Source: Bacilli bacterium (GTDB lineage: Bacteria; Bacillota_I; Bacilli_A; ML615J-28; CAG-698). From it: DNA of 64,000 bases. Positions 11,339-19,966 of this stretch are shown one piece after another. The notes below the pieces were generated by a model, which saw only the letters and a list, made by a program, of their open reading frames with translations, did no database searches and was not told the origin of the DNA. The position numbers and the translations under genes are program-made. The stretch spans positions 1 through 64,000 of the forward strand of contig JAQUZE010000008.1 in the NCBI GenBank assembly GCA_028691515.1, written 5' to 3'. The first letter of the stretch is position 1, and the number at the start of each line of letters is the position of its first letter.

Positions 11339-11874
11339 TGAAAAAAGATATTCTCTTGATTTTCTTTTTAATCGTTATAGTTATTATTGTTGTTGGTGGT
11401 GTAAAAATTGAGAGTGTTGAAGAACATTATTTAAATAATATTGATAATATTACTGAAGAAAGCGAAGTTATTACTTTAGAAATTGATTGTCATAAAGTAT
11501 TTGAAAATTGGGATAATTTAAATCCAAGTTTACAAAATGGTGTTTTACCTTTAGATGGTTATATTTTGAAATCAGTTGATTTAGTTTTAAGGGAAGCGGA
11601 TACTGTTTATGATATCTTATTAAGAGCAAGTAAATATTTTCGTTTCCACCTTGAGACTAAAGGCTATGGGACAAGCAAATATATAAGAGGTATAAATTAT
11701 CTATATGAATTTGATTGTGGTGCTTTAAGTGGTTGGGTTTATTTAGTTAATGGAATTAAAGGAGATTTATCTGTTAGTGATTATAAATTAAAAAATAATG
11801 ATTACATAAATATTGTCTATTCTTGTGATTTAGGCGATGACATTTTGGAGGAAAATTATGAAAACATTCGCTAA
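11338..11874 (+). CDS. DUF4430 (transcobalamin-like C-terminal) domain protein, membrane-anchored
   Basis: ADTVYDILLRASKYFRFHLETKGYG...YLYEFDCGALSGWVYLVNGIKGDLSVSDYKLKNNDYINIVYSCDLGDD. Confidence 0.85.
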   Translation: MKKDILLIFFLIVIVIIVVGGVKIESVEEHYLNNIDNITEESEVITLEIDCHKVFENWDNLNPSLQNGVLPLDGYILKSVDLVLREADTVYDILLRASKYFRFHLETKGYGTSKYIRGINYLYEFDCGALSGWVYLVNGIKGDLSVSDYKLKNNDYINIVYSCDLGDDILEENYENIR

Positions 11875-12739
11875 TTACCATCCTTTAACAATTTTTATGT
11901 TTTTTATAACTACTATTGTTCTTACTATGATTACTTATAATCCAATTATTTTAGGACTTTCTTTTGTATCTAGTATTATTTATTCTTTATATATTAATAA
12001 AGCAAAAGTTTTTTTTGCAAATATTTCATTTTATCTGTTTACATTTATTCTAATTATAGTTGCTAATCCTTTGTTTAGTCATAATGGGAAGACAATTTTG
12101 TTTTTTTTAAATGATAATCCAATTACTAAAGAAGCAATAATTTATGGAGTTAGTATTGGCACATTGTTTATTGCAATTATGTACTGGTTTTCTGTTTTTA
12201 ATCAAATAATGGAAAGTGACAAAACTATATTTTTATTTCAACGAATAATTCCTACTTTAGGTTTGATTATTTCAATGGGATTAAAGTTTGTTCCTAATTT
12301 TATTAAAAAAAGAAGAGAGATTAAAAATACTCAAAAAACTTTAGGATTATATTCTAAAAAAGGACTTGTTGAAAATATAAAAAATTCTATTAAGGTATTT
12401 TTGGCTTTGTTGACATGGGCAATTGATAGCTCTCTTGATACATCTTTATCTATGAAAGCAAGAGGATATGGGAAAGGTAAAAGAAGCAATTATTCTTTAT
12501 ACAAATTTAGAATTAATGATTTAATCGTTATTTTAATTAATATATTAATAATAGGCTTATTTATTTATATGTATGTTAATAAAAAATTAGATTTTTATTA
12601 TTATCCGATGATTTCTAAGATTAATTTTGATGTATATCTTATTGTGTTTTCATCATTGTTATTTATTTATATGTTGTTACCAGTTTTATATGAAATAAAG
12701 GAGAAAATCAAATGGCATTACTTGAAATCAAAAATTTAA
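11858..12739 (+). CDS. ecfT: Energy-coupling factor transporter transmembrane protein EcfT
   Basis: SMKARGYGKGKRSNY (A-R-G coupling motif), multi-pass, locus context. ATG 11858 preceded by GGAGG. Confidence 0.85.
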   Translation: MKTFANYHPLTIFMFFITTIVLTMITYNPIILGLSFVSSIIYSLYINKAKVFFANISFYLFTFILIIVANPLFSHNGKTILFFLNDNPITKEAIIYGVSIGTLFIAIMYWFSVFNQIMESDKTIFLFQRIIPTLGLIISMGLKFVPNFIKKRREIKNTQKTLGLYSKKGLVENIKNSIKVFLALLTWAIDSSLDTSLSMKARGYGKGKRSNYSLYKFRINDLIVILINILIIGLFIYMYVNKKLDFYYYPMISKINFDVYLIVFSSLLFIYMLLPVLYEIKEKIKWHYLKSKI

Positions 12740-14355
12740 GTTTTAAATACCCTTTAGAAGATAAATATGCGTTAGAAAATATTTCATTAACAATTAGTGA
12801 AGGAGATTTTTTGCTTGTTTGTGGGAAAACTGGGTGTGGGAAAACTACTTTATTAAAATTAATGAAAAAAGAATTAATGCCAAATGGAGCAAAAACTGGG
12901 CAAGTATTATTTATGGGAAATAGTATTGATAATAATGATCAACCTCAAAGTATAGGATATGTTTTTCAAAATCCGGATAATCAAATTGTGACTGATAAAG
13001 TATGGCATGAATTAAGTTTTGGTTTAGAAAATCTAAATACTAAAGTTGAGGTAATGAATAATAGAATTGCAGAAATTGCGAATTTTTTTGGAATTGATAA
13101 TTGGTTTTATGATAAAACTGCAAATTTATCTGGGGGACAAAAACAAATTCTTAATTTAGCATCTGTTTTAGTTATGAATCCTAAAGTTATTTTGCTTGAT
13201 GAACCTACTTCACAACTAGATCCCATTGCAAGAAGTAACTTTTTAGCATTGCTTACAAAAATTAATCAAGAATTAGGAATTACAATTGTTTTGGTAGAGC
13301 ATAATTTAGAAGATGTTTTTGGAATTGTTGATGAGGTTTTACTATTAGATTCTGGTAGATTGCTTATTAAAGGTTTGAAAGAAGAAGTAAATTATTATAT
13401 TAGAAAAAACAATTTAGATATTAGGGAGGCGTTGCCAAGTGCTTTACAAATAACTAATTCACTTAATTTAAAAGTTAGTTATTTTGTAAAAGATGCAAGG
13501 CAAGCGTTAATTAATAATTACTTTAATGTTAATTGTAAGATGTCATATAAAGTGCCTATTTTGAGTGAAGATACAGTTATAGATTGTAAGAATATCTTTT
13601 ACAGCTATGATAGAAAAAAGCAGGATATCTTAAATAATTTAAACATTAAGGTTTTGAAAGGAGAAATTCTTACAGTTCTTGGAAGTAATGGAAGTGGTAA
13701 AACTACTTTATTGAATGTTATTTCTGGGGTAATAAAGCCATATAGTGGAAGAATATTTATAAATGGTAAAAAAATTAAAGAGTATAAAAATAATTCTTTA
13801 TATATAAATAATTTAACGGTTCTTCCTCAAAACCCTTTAAATGTATTTTTAAAGAAAAGAGTAATTGACGATTTGAATGATAGTTTACTTATTGGAGGAA
13901 GTAGTGAAGAAGATAAAAATGAAATAATTGATATATTTCAATTAAAATCATATTTGTATTCTCATCCTTTTGATTTATCTGGTGGAGAAGTTCAAAAATG
14001 TGCACTTGCAAAGATTTTATTACTAAAACCTAAAATAATGCTTTTGGATGAACCAACTAAAGGTTTAGATGCTTTTGCGAAGAAACAACTAATAAATATA
14101 TTAAAAAGATTACAATTAGATGGAGTAACTATTGTTATAGTGACTCATGATATAGAATTTTCAGCAGCTATTAGTGATAGAATTGCAATGCTATTTGATG
14201 GTAGAGTTAATAACCCAACAAATATTCATGATTTTTTTAGTAATAATATTTTATATACAACTAAAGCTTCTTTAATTTCTAAAAACTTTTATCAAAATAC
14301 AGTTACAAATCAAGAATTAATTGCTCTTGCTTTAGAAAATGGATTAAAAAAATGA
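12712..14355 (+). CDS. ecfA: Energy-coupling factor transporter ATPase with two fused ABC domains (EcfA-EcfA')
   Basis: Two Walker A (GKTGCGKTT, GSNGSGKTT), two signature motifs (LSGGQKQ, LSGGEVQK), two Walker B (VILLDEPTS, IMLLDEPTK). Confidence 0.92.
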   Translation: MALLEIKNLSFKYPLEDKYALENISLTISEGDFLLVCGKTGCGKTTLLKLMKKELMPNGAKTGQVLFMGNSIDNNDQPQSIGYVFQNPDNQIVTDKVWHELSFGLENLNTKVEVMNNRIAEIANFFGIDNWFYDKTANLSGGQKQILNLASVLVMNPKVILLDEPTSQLDPIARSNFLALLTKINQELGITIVLVEHNLEDVFGIVDEVLLLDSGRLLIKGLKEEVNYYIRKNNLDIREALPSALQITNSLNLKVSYFVKDARQALINNYFNVNCKMSYKVPILSEDTVIDCKNIFYSYDRKKQDILNNLNIKVLKGEILTVLGSNGSGKTTLLNVISGVIKPYSGRIFINGKKIKEYKNNSLYINNLTVLPQNPLNVFLKKRVIDDLNDSLLIGGSSEEDKNEIIDIFQLKSYLYSHPFDLSGGEVQKCALAKILLLKPKIMLLDEPTKGLDAFAKKQLINILKRLQLDGVTIVIVTHDIEFSAAISDRIAMLFDGRVNNPTNIHDFFSNNILYTTKASLISKNFYQNTVTNQELIALALENGLKK

Positions 14356-15038
14356 AAAAACAATTGAAATATTTGATTATTTTTTTAATAATTCCCTTAA
14401 TAATTTTTATATCATACATGCTTTTTAGAAATAAACATTATGGTTTATTATCAATGATAGTAGCTTTTATGGCGTTAATTCCTTTTATTCTTTCTTTTGA
14501 AAATAGAAAACCAAAAGCGGAAGAATTAGTTATAATTGCAGTAATTATTTCTATTAATGTTGTTAGTAGGATAATTTTTGCTTCTGTACCTCATTTTAAA
14601 CCAGTAACTGCTATTATAATTATTGCGGCTTTAGCATTTGGTAAAGAAACAGGTTTTATGATTGGGATGTTGAGTGCTGTTCTTTCTAATTTTTACTTTG
14701 GTCAAGGTCCATGGACTCCGTTTCAAATGTTTTCATGGGGTATGATTGGATATATTGCAGGTATTTTTAAGGATAAACAAATTATTAAAAATATTGCTTT
14801 TATTTTATTACTTGGAATTTTGGGGGCGGTTATTTTTACTGGAGTTGTTGAAGTATGGACCGTTTTACAAATTGATCAAGGGTTTAATTTTGCTAAATAT
14901 TTAACTATATTATTAGCTTCAACACCAATATTGATTGTGTATATTCTTTCTAATTGCATCTTTATTTTTTTACTAGCTAAACCTTTATTAGAAATTTTTA
15001 ATAGAGCTAAGAATAAATATGGAATTTTTTTGAGTTAA
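14352..15038 (+). CDS. ECF transporter S component, probable cobalamin-specific (CbrT-like)
   Basis: Multi-pass membrane protein (KPVTAIIIIAALAFGKETGFMIGMLSAVLSNFYFGQGPWTPFQMFSWGMIGYIAGIF), last gene of the riboswitch-led operon. Confidence 0.75.
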   Translation: MKKQLKYLIIFLIIPLIIFISYMLFRNKHYGLLSMIVAFMALIPFILSFENRKPKAEELVIIAVIISINVVSRIIFASVPHFKPVTAIIIIAALAFGKETGFMIGMLSAVLSNFYFGQGPWTPFQMFSWGMIGYIAGIFKDKQIIKNIAFILLLGILGAVIFTGVVEVWTVLQIDQGFNFAKYLTILLASTPILIVYILSNCIFIFLLAKPLLEIFNRAKNKYGIFLS

Positions 15039-15648: not shown

Positions 15649-15677
15649 TTTACATTATTCTTTTTCTATAATATAAT
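15649..15677 (+). promoter_or_regulatory. Sigma-A type promoter of attenuator copy 1
   Basis: TTTACA (15649-15654), 17-bp spacer, TATAAT (15672-15677). Confidence 0.75.
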
Positions 15678-15705
15678 AGCTTCAATAAAGTTGGAGGAAA
15701 GATTT

Positions 15706-15771
15706 ATGAATTCTATTATTTGCAATCAATTTTATTATTATTATTACTTACCAAGAAGATATCAAAGTTAA
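15706..15771 (+). CDS. Tyr-rich leader peptide MNSIICNQFYYYYYLPRRYQS* (21 aa, not in ORF track)
   Basis: ATG 15706 with GGAGG SD at 15693-15697. Five consecutive Tyr codons. Parallel ORF precedes the paralogous gene. Confidence 0.8.
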   Translation: MNSIICNQFYYYYYLPRRYQS

Positions 15772-15808
15772 CTTAAATATATTCTTGGCTTTTTAGCTTG
15801 GGAAATAT

Positions 15809-15905
15809 ACTGTTATTACTAGATATCATCTAAAATTGATTAAGTAATAACAGTAATAGAATCTATAAAGATTTTAATGTGTTATTACTTATAACACATT
15901 TTTTT
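15809..15905 (+). promoter_or_regulatory. Transcription attenuator copy 1 (alternating 1:2, 2:3, 3:4 helices; terminator)
   Basis: 1:2 ACTGTTATTACT (15809-15820)/AGTAATAACAGT (15843-15854). 2:3 AAGTAATAAC (15842-15851)/GTTATTACTT (15881-15890). 3:4 AATGTGTTAT (15876-15885)/ATAACACATT (15891-15900) then T7. Confidence 0.82.
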
Positions 15906-15924
15906 ATTTTATAAGGAGGAAAAA

Positions 15925-16917
15925 ATGAAAAAGTTTAAAAATTTATTTATTATGTTGTTATTGTTATTTGTTGGTTTTGTTGCTACTGGTTGTGATGGTT
16001 TAAATGGAAAAATTAAAATCGGAATTTTACAGTATTTAGAAATTGAAGCATTAAGTGATGCTAGGCAAGGATTTATTGATGGTTTAAAAGCTGAAGGATT
16101 TGTTGATGGAGATAATATTGTTATTGACTTACAAAATCCTGAAACAGATGCAGCAACTATGTCTATGCAAGCAAAAAAACTTGTTAGAGAGAGCGATTTA
16201 ATATTAGCTATTGCAACACCTGCAGCTAGTGCTATTGTCAATGAAGCAAAGGACCAGGAAAAAGATACGCCAATTTTATTTACTGCTGTGACAGATCCAG
16301 TTTCATCTTCATTGATTGCTAGTAATGAAAATCCTGGTGGGAATGTTACTGGAACTAATGATATGAATCCAATAAAAGAGCAAGTTGGGCTTGTTAAACA
16401 ATTAATTCCGGATGCAAAAGCCTTAGGAATAATTTATACAGCAAGTGAAACTAATTCAGAAATACAAGCAAATATTGCAAAAGAAGAAGCAGAAAAATTG
16501 GGGTTAACTGTTGTAATTAAGACTATTGATAGTATTAATAATTTAAATCAGACGGCTTCACAACTTGCTCTAGAAGTAGACGCACTTTATATTCCAACTG
16601 ACAATGCTATTGCTGGAGCTATGGGTGTCATTAATGAAGTAGTTTTAGATAAAAATATTCCAGCAATTACTGGTGAGGTTAATCCAGTTTATGATGGTGG
16701 TTCAATAAGTTATGGTATTGATTATTATAAGTTAGGTCTTGAGACAGCAAAAATGGCAGTTAAAATTTTAAAAGAAGATAAAAAGCCAAGTGAAATTCCT
16801 TCAATTGGGTTAGAGCTAGAGAAGTTTAGTTTAGTTATTAATAAAAAACAATTAGATCAAATAGGAATAACTGTTCCCGCTGAATTAATAAATTTAGCTT
16901 CAGATGTAATAGAGTAA
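15925..16917 (+). CDS. ABC transporter substrate-binding lipoprotein (TrpX/ABC_sub_bind family), predicted tyrosine-related
   Basis: Lipobox VATGC; ARQGFIDGLKAEGFVDGDNIVIDLQNPETD; TAVTDPVSSSL; YIPTDNAIAGAM. Confidence 0.85.
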   Translation: MKKFKNLFIMLLLLFVGFVATGCDGLNGKIKIGILQYLEIEALSDARQGFIDGLKAEGFVDGDNIVIDLQNPETDAATMSMQAKKLVRESDLILAIATPAASAIVNEAKDQEKDTPILFTAVTDPVSSSLIASNENPGGNVTGTNDMNPIKEQVGLVKQLIPDAKALGIIYTASETNSEIQANIAKEEAEKLGLTVVIKTIDSINNLNQTASQLALEVDALYIPTDNAIAGAMGVINEVVLDKNIPAITGEVNPVYDGGSISYGIDYYKLGLETAKMAVKILKEDKKPSEIPSIGLELEKFSLVINKKQLDQIGITVPAELINLASDVIE

Positions 16918-16962
16918 ATAGCTATATTTTTATATGTTTATTTAGATTTATGAAATTAAGTA

Positions 16963-17016
16963 AAAAAAGCCATGTAAGTGTTTTCATGTGTTATTCATTT
17001 ACTTACTGGCTTTTTT
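16963..17016 (+). terminator. Intrinsic terminator of SBP copy 1, overlapping the promoter region of copy 2
   Basis: AAAAAAGCCA(t)GTAAGT (16963-16979) / ACTTACTGGCTTTTTT (17001-17016), one bulged T. Confidence 0.75.
16972..16987 (+). promoter_or_regulatory. 16-bp cre-like operator box, copy 2
   Basis: ATGTAAGTGTTTTCAT, identical to 15621-15636 while flanks have diverged. Confidence 0.5.
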
Positions 17017-17026
17017 GTAATATAAT
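16998..17026 (+). promoter_or_regulatory. Sigma-A type promoter of attenuator copy 2
   Basis: TTTACT (16998-17003), 17-bp spacer, TATAAT (17021-17026). Confidence 0.7.
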
Positions 17027-17054
17027 TATTTCATATAATAAGGAGGAAATAATT

Positions 17055-17123
17055 ATGAATTCTATCATAATTAATCAATTTTTTTATTATTTTTACTTTC
17101 CAAGGAGATATCTTGTAAATTAG
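17055..17123 (+). CDS. Phe/Tyr-rich leader peptide MNSIIINQFFYYFYFPRRYLVN* (22 aa, not in ORF track)
   Basis: ATG 17055 preceded by AGGAGG. Block FFYYFYF; aligns without gaps to the copy 1 leader through PRRY. Confidence 0.8.
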   Translation: MNSIIINQFFYYFYFPRRYLVN

Positions 17124-17158
17124 CAATATAGTCTTGGCTTTTTAGCTAGAAATAATAT

Positions 17159-17248
17159 TTGTTATTACAAGATATCAGTAAATCTTGATTAAGTAATAAC
17201 AATAAAGAAATGAATCTTTAATGTGTTATTGCTTATAACACATTTTTT
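17159..17248 (+). promoter_or_regulatory. Transcription attenuator copy 2
   Basis: 1:2 TTGTTATTAC (17159-17168)/GTAATAACAA (17193-17202). 2:3 AAGTAATAAC (17191-17200)/GTTATTGCTT (17225-17234, one G-U). 3:4 AATGTGTTAT (17220-17229)/ATAACACATT (17235-17244) then T6. Upstream GATATCTTGTAA (17107-17118) complements TTACAAGATATC (17165-17176). Confidence 0.82.
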
Positions 17249-17268
17249 AATTTATAAGAGGAGAAATT

Positions 17269-18255
17269 ATGAAAAATTTGAAAAGTATACTTATAGTATT
17301 ATCATCAGTTTTGATTATAATAATTGTCAGTGGATGTACAAATGTTAATAAACGTATTAAAATAGGTATTTTGCAATATTTAGAAATAGAAGCATTAAGT
17401 AATGCAAGACGAGGATTTATTGATGGTTTAGAAGCATCAGGGTTTATAGATGGAATAAACATAGATATTGAATTGTTAAATCCTGAAACAGATGCTTCAA
17501 CTATGTCTATTCAAGCAAAAAAACTAGTTAGAGAGAGTGATTTAATTTTAGCAATTGCAACACCTGCAGCAAGTGCTATTGTAAATGAGGCCAAGGACCA
17601 GCAAAAAGATACGCCAATTTTATTTACCGCTGTAACAGATCCAGTTTCAGCAATGTTAATTGAAAGTAATGAAAATCCTGGTGGGAATGTTACTGGCACT
17701 AATGATATGAATCCAATTAATGAACAAATTGGCTTGATTAAACAAATACTTCCTGATGCTTTAAAGTTAGGTATTGTTTATACTTCTAGTGAAACTAATT
17801 CAGAGATACAAGCAACAATTGCGAAAGAAGCGGCAGAAAATTTAGGATTGATTGTGGAAATTAAAACTATTGATACAATCAATGATTTACAACTTGTTGC
17901 ATCAGCTCTCGCTCAAAATGTTGATGTTATATATATTCCTACTGATAATGCTATAGCTGGTTCGATGGGTGTTATTAATGAAATAGTATTGGAAGAAAAA
18001 ATTCCAGCAATTGCTGGAGAAATTAATTCTGTCATTGATGGCGGATCGCTTACTTATGGTATTGATTATTATAATTTGGGATTTCAAACAGCACAAATGG
18101 CTATTTCGATTTTAAGAGATGATATTAAACCAAGTCAAATACCTTCTACTGGATTAGAAGAGTTTAAACTGGTCATTAATAAGAAACAGTTAGATTTAAT
18201 TGGTCTTGAAATACCAAGTAGTTTATTAGATCAAGCTGAATTAGTATTAGAATAG
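17269..18255 (+). CDS. ABC transporter substrate-binding lipoprotein paralogue, predicted Phe/Tyr-related
   Basis: Lipobox VSGC; highly similar to the 15925-16917 product. Confidence 0.85.
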   Translation: MKNLKSILIVLSSVLIIIIVSGCTNVNKRIKIGILQYLEIEALSNARRGFIDGLEASGFIDGINIDIELLNPETDASTMSIQAKKLVRESDLILAIATPAASAIVNEAKDQQKDTPILFTAVTDPVSAMLIESNENPGGNVTGTNDMNPINEQIGLIKQILPDALKLGIVYTSSETNSEIQATIAKEAAENLGLIVEIKTIDTINDLQLVASALAQNVDVIYIPTDNAIAGSMGVINEIVLEEKIPAIAGEINSVIDGGSLTYGIDYYNLGFQTAQMAISILRDDIKPSQIPSTGLEEFKLVINKKQLDLIGLEIPSSLLDQAELVLE

Positions 18256-18266
18256 AGGTAATTAAA

Positions 18267-19175
18267 TTGGATGTATTAATAAATATTTTAACAGATTCAT
18301 TTCAAGAAGGATTAGTTTGGGCTATAATGGCACTAGGTATTTTTATTTCTTTTAGAGTTTTAAATTTTGCTGACTTAACTAGTGAGGGAACTTTGACTTT
18401 AGGTGCTGCAATTGCAGCTGCATTAATTATAAAGGGAGTTAATCCTGTTCTTGCAACACTTATTGCATTTCTTGGGGGAATGTTTGCTGGAATTATAACT
18501 GGTTTATTACATACTAAGTTAAAAATTCCTGGTATTCTTGCAGGTATTATTACAATGACAGGTTTATACTCCGTCAATTTAAGAGTAATGGGAAAGGCTT
18601 CTCTATATATAGGAGAAAATAAAACTGTTTTTTCTTATATCAATATGTTATTTGATGATAGAGCTTTATCAAAAACTGTTACAGCTTTATTAGTGGTTAT
18701 AATAGTCTTTTTAATATTGTATTGGTTTTTTGGTACAGAAATTGGTATGAGTATTAGGACTACGGGTATGAATCAAAAAATGAGTAAATCTCTTGGTATT
18801 AATACTGATTTAATGATTATTTTAGGACTTGCTTTAGCAAACGGATTAGTTGCTTTGAGTGGATCATTAATTGCTCAAAAAATGAATAGTAGTAATATGG
18901 ATATAGGAAAAGGAACTATTGTTATTGGACTTGCGTCTATAATTATAGGAGAAGCTATTATTGGTAAAAAGACATTTAAAGTATGGTTGTTTGCTATTAT
19001 TGTTGGTAGTTTTGTTTATCAATTATTAATTGCTATTGCTATTAATTTATTGGGAATGAATCCTAATGATTTAAAACTATTACAAGCAATTTTAGTTGCC
19101 ATAATACTTGGTACACCTTTAATTACAAAAATGATTAAAGATAGGAAAGTAAATAAGGAGCTGAGATCATGTTAG
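18267..19175 (+). CDS. ABC transporter permease (TrpY-like, BPD_transp_2 family)
   Basis: Multi-pass; NFADLTSEGTLTLGAAIAAALI; GMSIRTTGMNQKMSKSLGINTD. Confidence 0.85.
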   Translation: MDVLINILTDSFQEGLVWAIMALGIFISFRVLNFADLTSEGTLTLGAAIAAALIIKGVNPVLATLIAFLGGMFAGIITGLLHTKLKIPGILAGIITMTGLYSVNLRVMGKASLYIGENKTVFSYINMLFDDRALSKTVTALLVVIIVFLILYWFFGTEIGMSIRTTGMNQKMSKSLGINTDLMIILGLALANGLVALSGSLIAQKMNSSNMDIGKGTIVIGLASIIIGEAIIGKKTFKVWLFAIIVGSFVYQLLIAIAINLLGMNPNDLKLLQAILVAIILGTPLITKMIKDRKVNKELRSC

Positions 19176-19966
19176 AATTAAAAAATGTTACAAAAGTTTT
19201 TAATAAGGATCAAAATATCATTGATCGAAAAGTTGCTCTTGATAATTTGACCATTACAGTAGAAGATGGAGATTTTATAACTGTTATTGGTAGTAATGGA
19301 AGTGGGAAATCTACATTTTTAAATATTGTAACTGGAATGCATATAGCTGATATTGGTAATGTATTCTTAGATGGTATTGACATTACTAAAATGAAACAAT
19401 ATAAAAGAGCTAAATATATGGGGATGGTTTATCAAGATCCTATGCAAGGAACAGCTTCAAATATGTCTATTTTAGAAAATATGGAAATGGCATTAAAAAG
19501 AGGTAAAAGGAAGACTTTAAGGTGGGGGTTTTCTGCAAAAAATAGAGATTTATTTATAAGTTTACTTAAGAAATTAGATTTAGGACTAGAAAAAAGAATG
19601 AGTCAGAAAGTGGGTTTACTATCTGGAGGACAAAGACAGGCAATAACTTTATTGATGGCAACATTAAATAGTCCTAAATTATTATTGCTTGATGAACATA
19701 CAGCTGCACTAGATCCTAAAACTGCAAAAACAGTTTTAGAAATTTCTGAAAAAATAATTCAAGATGAAAAGCTTACTACAATTATGATTACCCATAATAT
19801 GAAAGACGCAATTAAATATGGAAATCGTTTATTAATGTTTAATGAAGGAAAAGTAATATTAGATGTAAGAGATGAAGAAAAGAAAAATCTGACAATTGAA
19901 AAGTTATTACAAAAATTTAGTTCAACAGATGTTATTTCGTCTGATCAATTAGTTTTAGCCAAGTAA
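19169..19966 (+). CDS. ABC transporter ATP-binding protein (TrpZ-like)
   Basis: GSNGSGKST, LSGGQRQA, LLLLDEHTAAL. Confidence 0.9.
   Translation: MLELKNVTKVFNKDQNIIDRKVALDNLTITVEDGDFITVIGSNGSGKSTFLNIVTGMHIADIGNVFLDGIDITKMKQYKRAKYMGMVYQDPMQGTASNMSILENMEMALKRGKRKTLRWGFSAKNRDLFISLLKKLDLGLEKRMSQKVGLLSGGQRQAITLLMATLNSPKLLLLDEHTAALDPKTAKTVLEISEKIIQDEKLTTIMITHNMKDAIKYGNRLLMFNEGKVILDVRDEEKKNLTIEKLLQKFSSTDVISSDQLVLAK

Follow-up and report, generated by a model that had tools for sequence, protein, structure and literature searches.

Leader-peptide attenuators upstream of tandem aromatic amino acid-binding lipoprotein genes: a probable mixed Tyr/Phe sensor of order-wide descent

Two genes for substrate-binding proteins (SBPs) of the aromatic amino-acid type lie in tandem in the window (the whole stretch of 64,000 nt analyzed here), each behind a short leader ORF, and the two leaders differ in their aromatic codons: the control block reads FYYYYYL in copy 1 and FFYYFYF in copy 2. 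The question is whether the second copy has been retuned from Tyr to Phe, and whether leader codons can be read as a code for the substrate of the protein downstream, as the initial annotation held. The reading favored here, at a probability of roughly 0.7, is that copy 2 is a ribosome-mediated attenuator, predicted to sense shortage of charged tRNA-Tyr (and probably tRNA-Phe) and to control the SBP2, permease, and ATPase genes; it would be a mixed sensor, descended from a leader distributed across the order.

Layout and origin of the two units

Unit 1, read directly in the window, consists of promoter, leader, attenuator, and SBP1 (15649-16917, + strand, as are all features of the two units); unit 2, the next one downstream, consists of promoter, leader, attenuator, SBP2, permease, and ATPase (16998-19966). 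Promoter 1 (15649-15677) has the layout of promoter 2 (16998-17026), a promoter-like TTTACT-17 nt-TATAAT whose match to the consensus is at chance frequency for such an AT-rich region. SBP1 (15925-16917) is monocistronic. The intrinsic terminator that follows it (16962-17016; fold of -17.8 kcal/mol, z = -4.5 relative to dinucleotide-shuffled sequences, then T6) overlaps promoter 2 with its 3' arm, and separates the SBP1 unit from unit 2. SBP2 (17269-18255) is followed by the ABC permease (18267-19175) and ABC ATPase (19169-19966) of its operon. Directly upstream of the two units, at 11837-15038, are ECF-type transporter genes: a membrane protein, a tandem ATPase, and an S component of a folT-like family. 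Neither a T-box nor any other Rfam element was found in the window, and the T-box covariance model had no match up to E = 5; T-boxes were detected at other loci of this SBP family.

Leader 1 (15706-15771) was read directly as MNSIICNQFYYYYYLPRRYQS plus stop. Leader 2 (17055-17123) runs from ATG to TAG, encodes MNSIIINQFFYYFYFPRRYLVN, and has the ribosome-binding site AAGGAGG at 17040-17046; orthologous leaders precede relatives of the SBP. A short ORF with a ribosome-binding site and a run of cognate codons, as expected of an attenuator, is present and is predicted to be translated. The gap-free alignment of the two leaders reported earlier holds through PRRY, but the end of copy 2 has one codon more. 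The proposal that the attenuator was duplicated together with its SBP is supported: SBP1 and SBP2 group as sisters on the tree (support 100/99). The extra unit would come from a lineage-specific tandem duplication, and the operon suggests which copy moved: single-copy relatives share the order leader-SBP-permease-ATPase, so that copy 2 stands at the ancestral operon position. It would be the in-place descendant of the order-wide Tyr leader, with leader 1 and SBP1 the added unit.

Related leaders were sought in 43 genomes of the order, 25 of which have the SBP, and in one scan of GTDB genomes. This gave 23 leader-bearing loci, both window copies included, of which 19 are nonredundant. At the 21 further loci, nearly all in the same order, the same leader precedes the same SBP-permease-ATPase operon and is always Tyr-rich. 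A pattern of Tyr codons, CCAAG..CTTGG, and a T-run matches nothing but the SBP loci in the 43 order genomes, with no control hits; two more places, designated L064 and L065, match it when 395 genomes of the class are scanned. Such out-of-order matches were first assumed to be due to chance, as L065 probably is, but this was overturned for L064, which proved to be a genuine homologue: a Tyr attenuator in another family (about 1390-1690; leader MILQFIQEQLYSYYYYNQGDVLINDLAF), before a permease and not an SBP. One SBP clade without the Tyr leader (L016 and L019) has another conserved 5' region in the 200 nt upstream of the SBP, GGATTGTCTAATTAA with a TTATTCC..GGAATA hairpin before a terminator; it is possibly another regulator.

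Alternative helices and a model of switching

From 5' to 3', the elements of the attenuator are the control codons, a, a', b, c, c', d, e1, and e2. Strand a (CCAAGG, Pro-Arg codons; 17100-17105) pairs with b (TCTTGGCTTTTT, 17132-17143) in a terminator-like hairpin with a U run. The CTTGG-type arm and the U run are present in 19 of 19 loci, and a:b may be a true upstream terminator; its U run pairs with b' as well. Strand a' (GATATCTTGTAA, 17107-17118) is the 3' end of the leader ORF; its partner is c' (TTACAAGATATC, 17165-17176), which overlaps the end of c (TTGTTATTAC, 17159-17168). Strand d (AAGTAATAACAA, 17191-17202) pairs either with c, as an anti-antiterminator, or with e1, which is otherwise part of the terminator T2 (e1, e2, and T6; 17220-17248, -8.7 kcal/mol). 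The arms that the initial annotation described in copy 2 are indeed retained: c:d (17159-17168/17193-17202), d:e1 (17191-17200/17225-17234), and the terminator with its T6. With the two helices it did not include, CCAAGR:TCTTGG (a:b, 17100-17105/17132-17137) and the leader-end helix a':c', there are five in all. The copy 1 attenuator (15751-15905) has a at 15751, a' at 15758, b at 15783, c at 15810, c' at 15816, d at 15842, and T2 at 15876-15905; its a':c' core is GATATC only.

Covariation was assessed by comparing duplex energies of strand pairs within a locus with those of cross-locus pairs (19 nonredundant loci, 20,000 permutations), a procedure that leaves some locus relatedness in the P values. 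For a':c' the mean is -11.24 kcal/mol for own pairs and -5.67 for cross pairs (best permutation -8.47; P <= 5e-5), and the helix is built from unrelated sequences in different loci (GGAUGUCAUGU/ACAUGACAUC, GUGUAUCGU/ACGGUACAC, AUCGUGUAA/UUACACGAU, AGAUAUUGUG/CGCAAUAUCU). The c:d and e1:e2 helices also covary (each P <= 5e-5), d:e1 more weakly (P = 0.01), and a:b reaches only P = 0.07 because the near-invariant CCAAG/CTTGG hardly varies. In two controls, a' with reversed c' and a' with the spacer after d, the signal was weak (P = 0.05 and P = 0.20). In copy 2, a':c' is equaled by 1 of 1000 shuffles; the leader-end helix of copy 1, with 152 of 1000 as good, is no better than shuffles. Outside the order, the same helices recur with different sequence at L077 (before an SBP; a':c' GATATTAT/ATAATATC, computed) and L064 (before the permease; GTGATGT/ACATCAC, by eye), both looked at after the model was formed. 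The terminator and antiterminator are mutually exclusive, with covariation in c:d, d:e1, e1:e2, and a':c', as in an attenuator.

Other pairings and constraints were considered. The control codons can pair with b' at about 12 of the 19 loci (P = 0.005), but in the window copies this pairing is faint or missing and was set aside. Strand d has a further complement in TTATTACTT (own-pair against cross-pair energies, P <= 5e-5), so that the control codons may pair with d. The conserved PRR of the leader peptide might suggest an arrest peptide; this reading was dropped on account of loci L024-L026, which keep CCAAGA in another reading frame, so that the constraint on strand a is at the RNA level.

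The helices come from covariation; from them we infer the dynamics of a mechanism, taking the stalling of ribosomes at hungry codons and the response of the polymerase from known attenuators. A ribosome that stalls at the control codons would cover a and leave a' free. Hairpin a:b would then be blocked, and a' would pair with c', tying up the end of c; d, left free, would pair with e1, the e1:e2 terminator would be blocked, and transcription would continue. With plentiful aminoacyl-tRNA the ribosome would go on to the stop codon, in or beside a', and cover a'; c:d would form first, and e1:e2 would then terminate. The Phe codons would make copy 2 a mixed Tyr/Phe sensor, not a Phe-specific one.

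Constrained folding with an assumed ribosome footprint masked (37 C, at equilibrium, without pseudoknots or kinetics) indicates the direction of such effects, not their size. With the stop-codon footprint masked and the transcript extended to d, the mean probability is 0.95 for c:d and 0.01 for a':c'; with the Tyr codons masked, a':c' rises to 0.29 and c:d is 0.71 (p = 2e-6 and 1e-5). Over the 19 loci, Tyr-codon masking favors a':c' and d:e1, and stop masking c:d (Wilcoxon p about 1e-5): in the model, it is the stalled ribosome, not the one at the stop codon, that favors the antiterminator. Copy 2 is the sharpest switch, with a T2 probability of 0.98 at the stop codon, 0.00 for a stall on Tyr, and 0.04 for one on Phe. 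The model gives no switching for copy 1, and with the ribosome at the stop codon it does not turn off L009 and L010.

Control codons, binding proteins, and the meaning of Phe

The control block of leader 2 (17079-17099) has four Phe codons to three Tyr, that of leader 1 one to five. Right-justified on CCAAG, the second-last codon is Tyr in all 19 nonredundant loci, copy 2 included, and is spelt TAC there and in most of the others (15/19 in total); in coding genes sampled from the window, TAT:TAC is 113:9. The last codon is Phe in 13 of 19 loci, probably in part because of RNA pairing. Two Y-to-F changes had been described in copy 2 along with an L-to-F; the first two stand, but with Phe the common state of the last codon, the third is more likely F-to-L in copy 1. 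Among core codons (-6 to -2), Phe occurs twice in copy 2, but also twice in L034 and once each in L009, L013, L017, and L025, and each of these loci has just one SBP with a leader. Copy 2, though rich in Phe, is thus not unique.

The binding proteins are 70% identical members of PF04392, the aromatic amino-acid binding lipoproteins, and match the solved structures CD0873 (6hni), SP1069 (3lft), and VC_1101 (3lkv), which hold Tyr, Trp, and Phe, respectively (PMC6816091). Glu-263, which hydrogen-bonds to the Tyr hydroxyl, and Tyr-279 are the Tyr signature of CD0873 (PMC6816091). Glu and Tyr stand at these positions in SBP1, SBP2, and all of the leader-bearing SBPs (23/23), so that both window proteins are predicted to be of the CD0873 type. 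They score 287.6 and 274.5 bits against the TrpX equivalog NF041285, below its cut-off of 390, and have Tyr, not Gln, at the position of SP1069 Gln-284. As proof of Tyr specificity in SBP2, however, Glu-263 had to be dropped: in other families of the class it is kept by SBPs that a Phe T-box controls and by the partner with the Phe leader in SBP pairs. What it tells apart is thus Phe/Tyr types and Trp types, but not Phe and Tyr. Other columns that split Phe- from Tyr-linked SBPs were rejected as confounded by clade, their location in the pocket not being established. Most likely SBP2 still takes Tyr, and perhaps Phe too.

Pairs of the kind postulated for the window do exist in other families of the class. 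A search of 394 genomes across the class (84 with the SBP; about 90 SBPs inspected) found SBPs in tandem, one behind a Phe-rich leader and the other behind a Tyr-rich one, at L123 (SFFFNFR/SYYYYFS), L124 (SSFFYFR/SYYYYFS), L128 (SFYYFS/SFFFFFR), L099 (SFFFFFT/FYYFYYYQ), and L141 (NYYYYYYS/YFNFFFFYF). Their attenuators look unlike those of the window; the L141 pair is a recent sister duplication with a clean Y-to-F switch. At L098 and L102, the first of two tandem SBPs has a Phe T-box (UUC) and the second a Tyr T-box (UAC); Glu-263 has been lost from the Phe member, where Trp or Cys takes its place, and the Tyr member has Glu. Where the T-box is of the Trp type (UGG), residue 263 is Ala or Val, save in the long-branched L030. 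The near-identical SBPs of L112 (UUC) and L116 (UAC) have different T-box specifiers, which suggests that both amino acids are taken or that specificity is drifting.

The initial annotation called for a survey of F/Y composition against SBP clade. A tree of 102 SBPs requires a single change between Trp and Phe/Tyr, if L030 is left out, but Phe and Tyr flip about seven times, one flip being copy 2 if its majority counts as Phe. The regulator is therefore a weak code for Phe versus Tyr, though it separates Trp cleanly, and the proposal that control codons assign the substrate of the SBP is not supported, given these flips and the pocket residues that SBP1 and SBP2 share. The retuning proposed for copy 2 fares better in part: its leader has shifted toward Phe, and real Phe/Tyr twins are found in other genomes, but reassignment to Phe is not supported, because the invariant Tyr codon is kept and because single-copy loci also show Y-to-F. 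Copy 2 is most likely a Tyr(+Phe) sensor.

How much the Phe codons mean is a separate matter. A serious contender, at somewhat less than even odds, is that they are near-neutral drift of a Tyr leader in which U-rich aromatic codons are tolerated, Phe sensing being incidental; this is compatible with the attenuator mechanism and differs only in what the Phe codons mean. The recurrence of Y-to-F in the five single-copy loci and the repeated flips of F/Y identity on the SBP tree speak for it. In copy 2, two changes in seven codons are close to the expectation from SBP2's own branch (0.26 changes per site), though both are to Phe. Against drift, core changes generally yield Phe more than they yield the other residues that TAT can reach in one step; Phe is thus favored over random drift. 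More tentatively, the window may illustrate a recurrent process in which aromatic SBPs and their regulator are duplicated in tandem and the regulator, be it leader codons or a T-box specifier, is retuned between Tyr and Phe before, or without, a change in the pocket; copy 2 would then be a dual sensor half-way to clean Phe leaders such as that of L141.

It seems doubtful that selection has made copy 2 responsive to Phe, with SBP2 carrying Phe (or Phe and Tyr) and SBP1 staying on Tyr. The Phe majority in leader 2, the clean twins (five by leader, two by T-box), a genome apparently without the terminal Phe and Tyr enzymes, and a folding model in which a Phe-codon stall works as well as a Tyr-codon stall are in keeping with it. 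Against this are the invariant Tyr codon, the core Phe codons of single-copy loci, key pocket residues identical in SBP1 and SBP2, and a number of changes that branch length predicts; moreover, a Phe-only leader 2 would uncouple permease and ATPase from Tyr starvation. A translated uORF followed by an ordinary terminator, with no part for the ribosome in switching (a fixed attenuator of low level, say), is very improbable. The strength of the terminator and the lack of switching by copy 1 in the folding model speak for it, but the leader-end helix covaries across loci differing in sequence, the Tyr codons are strictly placed just 5' of strand a, and the stop codon is close to a'.

A mixed Tyr/Phe sensor also suits what can be said of the physiology. 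The genome is 94.9% complete and has a shikimate operon without a leader; no Phe leader was found on this aro operon, and a genome search for PDT and PDH_N domains (prephenate dehydratase and dehydrogenase) found none. Both amino acids probably have to be imported, which makes a transporter sensor responding to both reasonable.

Relation to known attenuators, and implications

In enteric trp, phe, and his attenuators, a run of cognate codons within a short ORF is combined with alternative hairpins and an intrinsic terminator. The copy 2 attenuator shares these parts, and its chained helices recall the six-strand his leader. It differs in controlling an uptake operon, in having as strand a' the 3' end of the leader ORF, within the a:b loop, where a ribosome at the stop codon would cover it, and in its distribution, Acholeplasmatales and a few neighbors. 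The predicted uORF attenuator uORFC-13-1, upstream of aroF in Acholeplasma, has a Phe-coding U run beside its terminator (PMC8632094) and comes from the same wider group; the window leader does not belong with it, since it precedes an SBP and the aro operon here has no leader. His leader attenuators of Firmicutes, including Erysipelotrichales, were predicted comparatively where HisR and T-boxes are absent (PMC9413887); those are likewise leader-peptide attenuators recognized by comparison, but for histidine. In Streptococcus suis, TrpX of the same SBP family is under a T-box (PMC9382623), and Trp, Phe, and Tyr specifiers were found at loci related to the window SBPs: the control is again by aromatic tRNA charging, but a T-box senses tRNA without a ribosome. 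The neighboring Tyr-type SBPs CD0873 and CD0876 of C. difficile are also about 70% identical (PMC6816091); unlike the window pair, each is in its own ABC unit. The family described here was not found in Rfam or in the literature searched; its members are putative Tyr attenuators of Acholeplasmatales and neighboring families.

In this family, the switching strand would be the end of the leader ORF itself, and the conserved PRR of the leader peptide is explained by an RNA arm. The tandem copies offer a natural experiment in how regulatory specificity may change after duplication. The ease with which the regulator changes between Phe and Tyr counsels caution in assigning Phe versus Tyr substrates from leader codons or T-box specifiers, although the Trp split is clean.
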